Shown here piece by piece: positions 37,393 through 40,953 of a stretch of 64,000 bases of DNA (positions are counted from its first letter, which is position 1; each line of letters starts with the position of its first letter). The position numbers were made by a program, and so were the translations under genes. This DNA comes from Pedobacter arcticus A12 (GTDB taxonomy: Bacteria; Bacteroidota; Bacteroidia; Sphingobacteriales; Sphingobacteriaceae). Location of the stretch: the NCBI RefSeq assembly GCF_000302595.1, contig NZ_AKZJ01000014.1, positions 124,001 through 188,000 on the forward strand, read 5' to 3'. Below the pieces are notes generated by a model. That model made no database searches. It saw only the letters and a program-made list of their open reading frames with translations, and was not told the origin of the DNA.

Positions 37393-37415
37393 CTGATATA
37401 TCATAAATCGTAGCA

Positions 37416-40400
37416 ATGGATTATCAATTTAAGCAGATAGAGAAGGACTGGCAGAAGTTTTGGGCAACAAACGAAACGTTTAAAGCAGAGGTAGACGAAA
37501 GCAAGCCGAAATATTATGTGTTGGATATGTTTCCTTACCCAAGTGGAGCGGGATTACATGTTGGACACCCGCTAGGCTATATCGCTTCTGATATTTTTGC
37601 TCGATATAAAAGACTAAAAGGTTTCAATGTTTTGCATCCAATGGGTTACGATTCTTTTGGTTTGCCTGCAGAGCAATACGCCATTCAAACTGGTCAGCAC
37701 CCAGCAAAAACTACTGAAACCAATATCAATAGATACAGAGAACAATTAGACAATTTAGGTTTTTCTTTCGATTGGAGCAAGGAAGTGCGTACCAGTTCGC
37801 CCGAATATTACAAGTGGACGCAGTGGATTTTTATGCAGCTGTTCAACTCTTGGTACAACAAAGAAACCGACAAAGCCGAGCATATTTCAACGCTGATTGC
37901 AAAATTAGAAACCATCCCGGCCAAAGAAATCAATGCAGTTTGTGATGACGATGTTTTACCGTTGCTCCCAAGCGATTGGAGCACCATGACCGCCGAAGAA
38001 AAGCAAGCTGAATTGTTGAAATACCGCTTGACATTTTTAAAAGAAAGCACTGTAAACTGGTGCGCAGCTTTAGGAACTGTTTTAGCAAACGATGAGGTAA
38101 AAGACGGCTTTAGCGAGCGTGGCGGTCATCCCGTTGAGCAAAAGAAAATGATGCAATGGAGTATGCGAATTACAGCTTACGCTGAAAGATTATTACAAGG
38201 TTTAAACCATATCGATTGGCCAGAACCGTTAAAAGAAATGCAACGCAACTGGATTGGGAAAAGTGTTGGGGCGATGGTGAAATTTAGCCTCATCCCCAAC
38301 CCTTCTCCGAAGGAGAAGGGAGCGCAGGAGAACTTGGAGAATTTGAATGACGTAGCTGGGCGGAGAGGATATGAGACTGCGAATTCTTTCGCTTGGGATA
38401 TTTTAAAAGGAAATTCTAAAGAGAACAGGAAGCAACAGACAGATGCTGAGATTGTTCTATGGAATGAATTACGAGACAGTCAAACTGGATTTAAAATTAG
38501 GAGACAACATGTTATTGAAGGGTATATCGCTGATTTTGTTTGTTTACCGAAAAAACTAGTAATAGAAATCGACGGAGGATATCACAATACTGTAGAAACT
38601 ATTGAATACGATAACCAAAGAACCGAATTCCTAAACAAAGCCGGATTCCAGGTCATCCGCTTCACTAACGAAGAAGCAATAAACAACACAAATAAGGTAA
38701 TAACAACAATAAAAGAAAAACTCCAGGCAAGTCCTTCTTACCCAGAAAAAGCAGAGCCAGTAAGCACATCCACAACGCAAGTGGCTCCTTCTCCTTCGGA
38801 GAAGGCGGGGGATGAGGCTTCTTTTATTGAGGTCTTCACAACTCGTGTCGATACATTATATGGCGTTTCATTTTTAGCAATTGCTCCAGAGCATGAGCTA
38901 GTTGCCTCATTGACTACGCCAGCGCAAAAAGCGGATATAGAAAACTACATTTTAGCGACTAAAAAGAAATCGGAATTAGACCGTATGTCTGATGTGAAAA
39001 CGGTTTCGGGTGCTTTTACAGGAAGTTATGCGATAAATCCGTTAAGTGGCGAAAAAGTGCCGGTTTGGATTGCTGATTACGTTTTGGCCGGTTACGGAAC
39101 AGGTGCGGTAATGGCGGTTCCGTCTGGCGATCAACGTGATTATCTTTTCGCACAGCATTTCGACTTACCGATTATCCAGATTTTGGATGCGCAGGTTTGC
39201 GATAAAGAAGCTGATGCAACCAAAGAAGGTCGATATATCAACTCTGGAATTATCAACGGTTTGAGCTACAAAGAAGCTACTCAAAAAATTGTTACCGCAT
39301 TAGAAGAAGTTGGAATGGGTTACGCAAAGGTGAATTTCCGCATGCGTGATGCGATTTTTGGCCGCCAAAGATATTGGGGCGAGCCAGTTCCGGTTTATTT
39401 TAAAAACGGTTTACCTTATCTTATTAAAGAAGAAGAACTTCCTTTGCTGTTGCCAGAAGTAGATAAATATTTACCTACCGAAAGCGGAGAACCACCTTTG
39501 GGTAGAGCAAAAGACTGGAAATACCAAGACGAATACGAATATGAATTAAGCACCATGCCAGGTTGGGCGGGCAGTAGCTGGTATTGGTACCGTTATATGG
39601 ATGCAAAAAACGATGCTGCTTTTGCAGATAAAGACAAAATAGCTTACTGGAAAGATGTGGATTTGTACATCGGAGGTAATGAACATGCCACCGGACATCT
39701 TTTGTACAGCCGTTTCTGGAACAAATTTTTGAAGGATTTAGGTTATGTGAACGAAGAAGAACCATTCAAGAAGTTGATTAACCAGGGGATGATTCAGGGG
39801 CGGAGTAACTTTGTTTATAGATTGAATTATTCTGTAAATAATCTGAAAGAAAATCTTGAAAATCCTGATGAGGATCTCGATAAGATTAACTATCTAACTC
39901 AAGAATTACCTCTAGTTTTCATTTCATATGATTTAGTTGACAAAATAACGAATGACGCTGATTATAGGATGATGACCCAGAACAACATCAACGATAATCT
40001 TTTGAGTTTGGAACTAAAAGCTAACGGGATTGAAATATTGTTGGACAATGAAAATCTTATTACTAAAATTCATGTTGACGTAAATATAGTTGAAAATGAC
40101 ATTTTAAACATCGAAAAATTTAAAGCTTCAAGGCCAGAGTTTAAAGACGCAATCTTCATTTTTGAAGACGGTTCAAACCCCCTCTCCTTCGGAGAGGGCC
40201 GGGGTGAGGCCAAATACGTTTGTGGTCACGAAGTAGAAAAAATGTCTAAATCCAAATTCAACGTGGTAAATCCCGATGATTTAGTAGAACGTTACGGTGC
40301 AGATACATTGCGGATGTACGAGATGTTCTTAGGTCCTTTGGAGCAAAGTAAACCATGGAATACCAACGGGATTGAAGGTGTTTTCAAATTCTTGAGAAAA

Positions 40401-40925
40401 TTCTGGAAACTTTTCCATGATGATAGCTTCAACTTCGTAGTTTCTGATGAAGCACCAACAAAAGCAGAATTAAAAGCTTTGCATAAAATTATTAAAAAAG
40501 TAGAAGAAGATATCGAGCGTTTTTCTTTCAATACATCGGTTTCCAGCTTTATGATTGCGGTTAACGAGTTAACGGATTTAAAATGCAACAAAAGAGCAAT
40601 CTTACAAGAAATGGTCATTCTTCTTTCATCTTATGCACCCCATATCGCAGAAGAGCTTTGGAAACAATTAGGCAACGAAGAAGGAACACTTTCTTACGCC
40701 CAATTCCCGGTTTTTAATCCGGAGCACCTTGTAGAAAACGAATTTGCTTATCCCGTATCAATCAACGGGAAAACAAAGATGAACCTAACGCTTTCCTTGA
40801 CTTTAGAACCAGTTGATGTTGAAAAGGAAGTGTTAGCGAATGAACAAGTGTTGAAATATCTAGACGGTAAAACGCCTAAAAAGGTAATTGTTGTAAAAGG
40901 AAGAATAATTAACGTGGTAATCTAG
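37416..40925 (+). CDS. leuS: Leucine--tRNA ligase with in-frame DUF559 insertion
   Basis: This class I synthetase charges tRNA-Leu. All hallmarks are intact: HIGH-type HVGH (residues 48-51) after PYPSGAG, the editing-domain start FTTRVDTLYG (about 474), the RQRYWGEPVP segment, and KMSKS at 942-946. At 1169 residues it is about 200 longer than is usual. Residues 291-468 are a DUF559 nuclease domain bounded by inverted repeats. Residues 920-932 are a 13-codon palindromic repeat. The segment between FVYR (near 809) and HVDVNIV is also longer than I expect. The insertions sit in surface-type junctions (start of the CP1 editing domain and just before KMSKS). The uninterrupted frame suggests the enzyme is made and functional. 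Whether the insert is retained in the protein is unknown. Confidence 0.95.
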   Translation: MDYQFKQIEKDWQKFWATNETFKAEVDESKPKYYVLDMFPYPSGAGLHVGHPLGYIASDIFARYKRLKGFNVLHPMGYDSFGLPAEQYAIQTGQHPAKTTETNINRYREQLDNLGFSFDWSKEVRTSSPEYYKWTQWIFMQLFNSWYNKETDKAEHISTLIAKLETIPAKEINAVCDDDVLPLLPSDWSTMTAEEKQAELLKYRLTFLKESTVNWCAALGTVLANDEVKDGFSERGGHPVEQKKMMQWSMRITAYAERLLQGLNHIDWPEPLKEMQRNWIGKSVGAMVKFSLIPNPSPKEKGAQENLENLNDVAGRRGYETANSFAWDILKGNSKENRKQQTDAEIVLWNELRDSQTGFKIRRQHVIEGYIADFVCLPKKLVIEIDGGYHNTVETIEYDNQRTEFLNKAGFQVIRFTNEEAINNTNKVITTIKEKLQASPSYPEKAEPVSTSTTQVAPSPSEKAGDEASFIEVFTTRVDTLYGVSFLAIAPEHELVASLTTPAQKADIENYILATKKKSELDRMSDVKTVSGAFTGSYAINPLSGEKVPVWIADYVLAGYGTGAVMAVPSGDQRDYLFAQHFDLPIIQILDAQVCDKEADATKEGRYINSGIINGLSYKEATQKIVTALEEVGMGYAKVNFRMRDAIFGRQRYWGEPVPVYFKNGLPYLIKEEELPLLLPEVDKYLPTESGEPPLGRAKDWKYQDEYEYELSTMPGWAGSSWYWYRYMDAKNDAAFADKDKIAYWKDVDLYIGGNEHATGHLLYSRFWNKFLKDLGYVNEEEPFKKLINQGMIQGRSNFVYRLNYSVNNLKENLENPDEDLDKINYLTQELPLVFISYDLVDKITNDADYRMMTQNNINDNLLSLELKANGIEILLDNENLITKIHVDVNIVENDILNIEKFKASRPEFKDAIFIFEDGSNPLSFGEGRGEAKYVCGHEVEKMSKSKFNVVNPDDLVERYGADTLRMYEMFLGPLEQSKPWNTNGIEGVFKFLRKFWKLFHDDSFNFVVSDEAPTKAELKALHKIIKKVEEDIERFSFNTSVSSFMIAVNELTDLKCNKRAILQEMVILLSSYAPHIAEELWKQLGNEEGTLSYAQFPVFNPEHLVENEFAYPVSINGKTKMNLTLSLTLEPVDVEKEVLANEQVLKYLDGKTPKKVIVVKGRIINVVI
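38286..38323 (+). repeat. Left inverted repeat of the DUF559 element
   Basis: AGCCTCATCCCC is followed by a perfect 9-bp hairpin CCCTTCTCC-GAA-GGAGAAGGG (38300-38320) and AGC. It encodes SLIPNPSPKEKG in the leuS frame. Confidence 0.92.
38784..38819 (-). repeat. Right inverted repeat of the DUF559 element
   Basis: It is the reverse complement of the left repeat with few differences: GCT, then the hairpin CCTTCTCC-TTC-GGAGAAGG (38787-38805), then a G-rich tail ending GATGAGGCT. It encodes APSPSEKAGDEA in the leuS frame. Confidence 0.92.
40173..40211 (-). repeat. Solo 39-bp palindromic repeat inside leuS
   Basis: The hairpin CCCTCTCC-TTC-GGAGAGGG (40180-40198) plus a CCGGGGTGAGG tail has the same design and orientation as the right end of the DUF559 element. 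It adds exactly 13 codons (SNPLSFGEGRGEA) between the conserved EDG and KYVCG of LeuRS. It resembles Rickettsia palindromic elements, which also insert in frame into proteins. Confidence 0.85.
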
Positions 40926-40953
40926 AAAAAACAAAGATCATTTCTTGTTTTTT
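40926..40953 (+). terminator. leuS terminator
   Basis: AAAAAACAA (40926-40934) pairs with TTGTTTTTT (40945-40953), followed by further T. It starts at the leuS stop codon. Confidence 0.65.

Follow-up and report, generated by a model that had tools for sequence, protein, structure and literature searches.

An in-frame, palindrome-bounded DUF559 nuclease block in leuS of Pedobacter arcticus is probably a frame-neutral mobile element

In the REP/RAYT systems, a hairpin with a short tag occurs as inverted pairs around an enzyme gene and as non-autonomous copies elsewhere, and pairs of a REP with its enzyme are known. The unit that we describe here, located in the leuS gene of Pedobacter arcticus A12, shares these features, i.e. 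the short-tagged hairpin, the inverted pairs around an enzyme gene and the non-autonomous copies, but its enzyme is a PD-(D/E)XK nuclease instead of a Y1 HUH transposase (TnpA_REP), and the unit is also found in frame inside genes. The Rickettsia palindromic elements (RPE) and the intragenic CGTC/GTAG REPs resemble it in a different respect: according to the available excerpts, they are short palindromic elements that occur in frame in unrelated protein genes (PMC3733652, PMC10969869), with the CGTC families being marked as not transposase-associated in the REP feature table (PMC3733652). Those excerpts mention no nuclease for them, whereas here such ends bound a nuclease gene and are found beside nuclease-free solo and dimeric copies.

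The EDxHD enzymes, including I-Bth0305I, are presented in the excerpted source as homing endonucleases, I-Bth0305I being a multi-domain enzyme of a group I intron with a target of nearly 60 bp (PMC3943268); in contrast, our locus has no intron, and a compact domain stands alone between the palindromes. In a phage methylase, the ShiLan element is an open, in-frame insertion with a disjunct distribution, a nuclease and no splicing domain, and the same methylase carries a lone LAGLIDADG nuclease without an intein or intron (PMC11855218, in part); our unit is alike in being an open in-frame insertion of disjunct distribution that carries a nuclease and no splicing domain, but the HNH nuclease of ShiLan is out of frame, and palindromic ends are not mentioned in the available text, while the DUF559 domain here is in the frame of its host. 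The Vsr-type and free-standing DUF559 nucleases belong to the same domain family as our insert (profile match to PDB 3hrl, E 2e-34; VsrA of Caulobacter, PMC12907096). VsrA, which is required for the SOS response in cells that lack a cytosine methylase, is read by its authors, in the excerpts, as a mismatch-repair nuclease (PMC12907096); the SOS requirement fits with nuclease activity in the DUF559 family, but the present units look mobile and are bounded by palindromes. In Legionella, repeated segments with a transposase and DUF559 are described as recombination hotspots (PMC12308824, in part).

Palindromic inserts that keep the frame have been published, and so, separately, have nuclease insertions that are in frame or hidden. 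The excerpts of the open-licence literature (PMC12907096, PMC6712171 and PMC12308824 included) contain no report that ties DUF559 to palindromes or to in-frame insertion; the combination of a palindromic insert with a PD-(D/E)XK nuclease across core enzymes of Bacteroidota was likewise not found in the open-licence literature, a search that most subscription papers lie outside.

The window, i.e. the whole stretch of 64,000 nucleotides that was analysed, contains on its forward strand the leuS gene (37416–40925; ORF list, Pfam and NCBIfam), which encodes a leucyl-tRNA synthetase of 1169 residues including its inserts (NCBIfam leuS_bact, E 2e-275). The 534-bp block at 38286–38819 is an in-frame insertion that separates the catalytic core from the editing domain, presumably at a turn on the enzyme's surface, judging from the LeuRS structure, and the reading frame runs uninterrupted through the whole of it. 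Our inverted-repeat search has resolved the block into an ordered unit: an outer tag (type CCTCATCCCC; here AGCCTCATCCCC, 38286–38297), a self-complementary hairpin (CCTTCTCCGAAGGAGAAGG, 38301–38319), the DUF559 domain in the leuS frame and on the same strand (38406–38723, from the Pfam match), the same hairpin inverted (38787–38805) and the inverted tag (38808–38819). The outer arms (12 bp) and the inner arms (19 bp) are both 100% complementary, and they are separated by spacers of 3 and 2 bases. The initial annotation, made from the letters of the window, had described an in-frame block of this length that is open through both repeats, with perfect outer inverted repeats of 12 bp, and in these respects it is borne out; the nearly perfect repeats of about 36 bp that it also reported are indeed inverted ends, but not one 36-bp stretch, being made of the 12-bp and 19-bp arms. 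Absent from that annotation is a second copy of the palindrome in the same leuS, found by palindrome search at 40180–40211, where CCCTCTCCTTCGGAGAGGG is followed by CCGGGGTGAGGCC: it is a solo hairpin and tag, in frame and nuclease-free. No target-site duplication was seen by eye in the comparisons of leuS and valS, in which the insertion seems to take the place of a few loop codons. As a separate observation, the leuS stretch that follows RSNFVYR (39817–40120) is several tens of residues longer than, and unlike, that of most relatives; it is expanded in G001, G004 and G007 too, and the palindromes do not account for the expansion.

The interior of the block, which had been recognised as DUF559 or Vsr-like before any search, is matched by Pfam DUF559 (PF04480) at residues 331–436, with E 5e-32 for the whole protein and 3e-33 when the block is searched by itself; the scores of 110 and 114 bits compare with a curated cut-off of 20.6. 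The five residues that had been named for the domain, E345, D373, E384, D386 and H390 (E55, D83, E94, D96 and H100 of the block), all occupy invariant columns in an alignment of 83 sequences, from which near-duplicates were left out. For leuS inserts, dN/dS could be computed in 11 of 15 pairs and is 0.07–0.15 in these, with dS being saturated except in the pair G001–G003 (0.079). A second structural match, weaker than that to 3hrl, is to PDB 3r3p, a “Mobile intron protein” (E 6e-7), which we take to be the catalytic domain of I-Bth0305I, and which is the likeness of our domain to the EDxHD homing endonucleases. In this alignment E94 is kept, D83, D96 and H100 lie opposite A, N and W, and E55 falls outside the aligned part; since E94 is the sole named residue that is matched, the similarity indicates kinship of fold and not the same active site. 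The genome of P. arcticus holds one full-length DUF559 among two matches in all, the other being a fragment of 40 codons.

We have aligned leuS from 18 genomes of the genus (the window and 17 others) in order to compare the site near residue 292, where the block is located. The site is not fixed: a unit of the window's type (type A) is present in 6 of the 18 (the window, G001, G002, G003, G016 and G017), a divergent DUF559 whose GC-rich repeats differ (type B) in 3 (G010, G012 and G013; in G013 the leuS frame breaks off after the insert), and no DUF559 in 8 (G004 to G009, G011 and G015), where short unrelated fillers are present in some; the remaining genome, G014, has a contig that stops inside the tag. 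Occupied and unoccupied alleles of one site are thus found among close relatives, as in homing elements. At a second leuS position, near residue 529, DUF559 occurs in five loci of our scan of genome contigs; at this position G006 has two inverted hairpins around a short spacer, i.e. the unit minus its nuclease (a dimer), and G017 has a solo palindrome. Two kinds of filler at the site near residue 292 may be mentioned in their own right: an GTCGGAAGCC-like in-frame filler occurs instead of DUF559 in G004, G007 and G009 (loci L120, L123 and L125), and A-rich repeats occur in G006 and G015.

The insert has also been compared with the gene around it. G001 and G003 agree at 161 of the insert's 174 third codon positions, but at 462 of 613 in the leuS that flanks it (Fisher p 1.5e-7), while the leuS flanks of G001 are nearer to those of G004 (538/613) and G007 (539/613), both of which are DUF559-free at the site. 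The greater likeness of the insert at silent sites suggests, for this one pair of genomes, that it has been exchanged laterally.

Copies of the palindrome, nuclease-free ones among them, are spread through the genome of P. arcticus, where the pattern CCCTCTCCN{2,5}GGAGAGGG has 33 exact copies, against 0 for the same pattern read backwards. Six of the 33 are flanked on either side by 100 open codons or more; their hosts are leuS, valS, a MiaB-like gene (which contains a further copy of slightly different sequence), a MetH-like gene, a semialdehyde dehydrogenase gene and one gene without a Pfam match. As with the RPE, in-frame palindromic copies are therefore found in different genes of one genome. 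Others are located near the frame starts of MurD-like, amino-acid kinase and Cys/Met PLP genes, or between genes. Both G000 and G002 have the same valS loop occupied, the loop codons of the relatives being gone (in this comparison the motif search recovered 9 of the 17 fetched loci).

We consider that the block is probably a palindrome-bounded, frame-neutral selfish element, in its autonomous form [tag-hairpin]-DUF559-[hairpin-tag], with a putative homing-like nuclease. What is read from the sequence itself is the anatomy, the open in-frame reading, the conserved residues and the low dN/dS, and, in the comparison of genomes, the several kinds of host gene, a leuS site that has been occupied more than once, and the nuclease-free solos and dimers. 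A frame-neutral mobile unit was already the proposal of the initial annotation, and it is supported both by the varied occupancy of the leuS site and by the repeat-nuclease units that are present in other genes and genomes. Its strongest rivals are that the palindromes are mobilised by RAYT, with DUF559 as a passenger, and that DUF559 is a recruited accessory domain; we weigh both below, together with the evidence that bears on them.

The palindromic ends are not peculiar to leuS. The scan of genome contigs, in which 78 of 116 stretches were confirmed as DUF559 loci, used close peptide patterns and is biased to Bacteroidota; a GC-rich hairpin within 250 bases is found on both flanks in 20 of these 78 loci, on either flank in 36 and on neither in 42, the figures for control windows taken on the same loci being 5 (both flanks) and 420 (either flank) of 9984. 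When the upstream flank was compared with the reverse-complemented downstream flank, 32 of 75 loci reached a score of at least 14, against 0 of 440 controls (3 of the 78 lie too close to the end of their locus). Many of the aligned flanks read CCTC, a C-rich spacer, and then CCCCTCTCC with its complement; a clear terminal repeat is not seen in the recG copies, and among the epimerase, ileS and degT copies it is weak or absent in several. Among the best matches from the class of Bradyrhizobium, which we take to be the Alphaproteobacteria, 29 of 30 fetched loci were compared (that of L103 was left out): hairpins are found on both flanks in 14 of 29, against 15 of 1574 controls, and on either flank in 25 of 29, against 212 of 1574, and the DUF559 frame is shorter than 250 codons in 25 of 29. 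Across 301 genomes of the window's family, 104 have both the palindrome and a strong DUF559 match, 38 DUF559 only, 22 the palindrome only and 137 neither (odds ratio 17; within-genus permutation p 5e-5); a strong match here means E<1e-15 (142 genomes), and 43 genomes with weaker matches are scored as lacking the domain. The association is incomplete in both directions, with the palindrome being present in 22 of 159 genomes without a strong DUF559, and this exact palindrome missing from 38 of the 142 that have one.

These data bear on the first rival, in which the palindromes are REPs that are moved by RAYT (TnpA_REP, a HUH transposase) and DUF559 is a passenger. Y1_Tnp matches do occur in all 18 genomes of the genus (82 matches), the anatomy of tag plus hairpin resembles that of a REP as described in the excerpts of PMC3733652, and one of ten inspected Y1_Tnp loci (L164) has palindromes of CTTCTCC/CTCTCC type nearby. 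The other nine of the ten inspected (of the 82 matches) are without this type of palindrome: a different one (GCCCACGG...CCGTGGGC) is present at three, a further kind at a single locus and none at five; moreover, the palindrome tracks DUF559 within genera and flanks DUF559 itself in two phyla. We therefore regard mobilisation by RAYT as unlikely. Three Y1 transposase genes of the genus (L169, L170 and L172) are accompanied by a palindrome of different sequence, GCCCACGGTTTAAACCGTGGGC, which looks like a REP-like family of its own.

The hosts of DUF559 are the subject of the second rival. The domain is found in frame within 13 kinds of gene, some of them related, as identified by Pfam, NCBIfam and homology: leuS (two sites, near residues 292 and 529), ileS, recG, a ligase-associated DEXH helicase, a MeaB/methylmalonyl-CoA mutase fusion, chorismate synthase (aroC), urocanase, methionine synthase (metH), UDP-galactopyranose mutase, a DegT-type aminotransferase, an epimerase/polysaccharide-synthesis protein, a type ISP restriction enzyme and a type I restriction enzyme; it also occurs in N-terminal fusions to hisF and in a one-sided case in a BadF-like protein. 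On a tree of 100 DUF559 domains, built from a short alignment of 113 columns and with 26 forks open, the host labels need 29 changes (minimum 17), against a mean of 64.7 when shuffled; the domains therefore cluster by host gene, yet jumps between genes are needed. The methylmalonyl-CoA mutase copies are nested within leuS copies, the aroC copies are interleaved with those of leuS position 529, the urocanase, HsdR and type ISP copies form one clade, and the copies of leuS position 292 form several separate lineages, with at least 4 changes on starred branches; the recG, hisF and epimerase copies each form a single group. The tree includes 100 of 108 rows: 7 were skipped for stops or length, L163 was dropped as being from the same genome as L039, the three genes of L143 share a single row, and L060 is represented without its first domain. 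The latter locus is a leuS that carries two DUF559 domains, with ExDGxxH at frame residues 388 and 779, i.e. at both usual sites.

According to this rival, DUF559 is a functional accessory domain, of repair or defence, that was recruited by its hosts, the palindromes being ordinary repeats that gather at tolerant loops. Points in its favour are the single groups of the recG, hisF and epimerase copies, which may be fixed domains, the unrelated fillers that also occur at leuS site 292, and the reading of Caulobacter VsrA as a mismatch-repair nuclease (PMC12907096, in part). Against it stand the very different functions of the hosts (tRNA ligases, chorismate synthase, urocanase and methionine synthase), the inverted paired ends, the DUF559-free alleles in close relatives and the repeated occupations of a site, and we consider recruitment unlikely as well.

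The frame of the insertions is also informative. Among internal insertions with host homology on both sides, host and nuclease share a single frame in 59 of 61, a rate that is overstated, as the host references were drawn from in-frame cases and out-of-frame insertions in other genes would be missed; all 61 are on the host strand. The two exceptions are L052, from a MAG, and L136, from G013. Three hisF rows were set aside from this count (N-terminal fusions whose upstream match may be the homologous hisA), and five rows are one-sided; 38 of 107 loci have no match to a host reference, and most of these are short, free-standing frames. The survival of in-frame copies would explain the frame bias. 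That the insert is instead removed before the protein works, by intein-like splicing, as an intron or by ribosome bypassing, would be favoured by its position in an essential enzyme, given what is established for inteins and introns, but is very improbable: the initial annotation already took it for neither intein nor intron, there are zero intein-model matches for leuS or the block (Pfam and NCBIfam) and zero Rfam matches for group I/II introns at E<=1 over 37400–40950, and RNA splicing or bypassing would not need the frame that is kept through the insert in 59 of the 61 insertions, a set built from in-frame hosts. Among the free-standing cases, L143 (G265:C23) has three DUF559 genes in tandem, with palindromes of CCCCTCTCC type around them.

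For the palindrome-bounded, frame-neutral element that we prefer, the following course may be envisaged. The nuclease, produced as part of the host enzyme or, in free-standing copies, from a gene of its own, would cut either an element-free allele or a palindromic end, whereupon the element would be copied in by repair. The usual event would be homing to the same site between strains, and the rare one a jump to a new gene; a copy would survive only where it has been inserted in frame in a tolerant loop of an important gene. Any frameshift or nonsense mutation of the nuclease would there destroy the host enzyme as well, so that the nuclease would be shielded from decay. A broader reading, to which we give slightly less than even chances, is that CCTC-tagged CCYTCTCC hairpins are mobilised by cognate DUF559 nucleases across bacteria, as a second, RAYT-independent REP system and a source of in-frame palindromic protein inserts, in which embedding in an essential protein makes the loss of the nuclease lethal. 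If so, some of the sporadic extra domains in essential enzymes would be parasites and not accessory functions; and a Pfam family of unknown function that is bounded by palindromes in two phyla, and located in tRNA synthetases and other core enzymes, offers a concrete enzyme to test.

We have also considered whether the openness of the palindrome in most reading frames is an adaptation. Three of four end sequences are open in 5 of 6 frames and the fourth in 3 of 6; since 39–62% of shuffled sequences (89% for the fourth) are equally open, this is not claimed. Two further occurrences of the domain were noted: a genome of 3.4 Mb from the class of Bradyrhizobium (G316) has 10 DUF559 matches, 8 of them at E<1e-20, and a DUF559 gene of Armatimonadota (L104) has long inverted palindromes at both of its ends.
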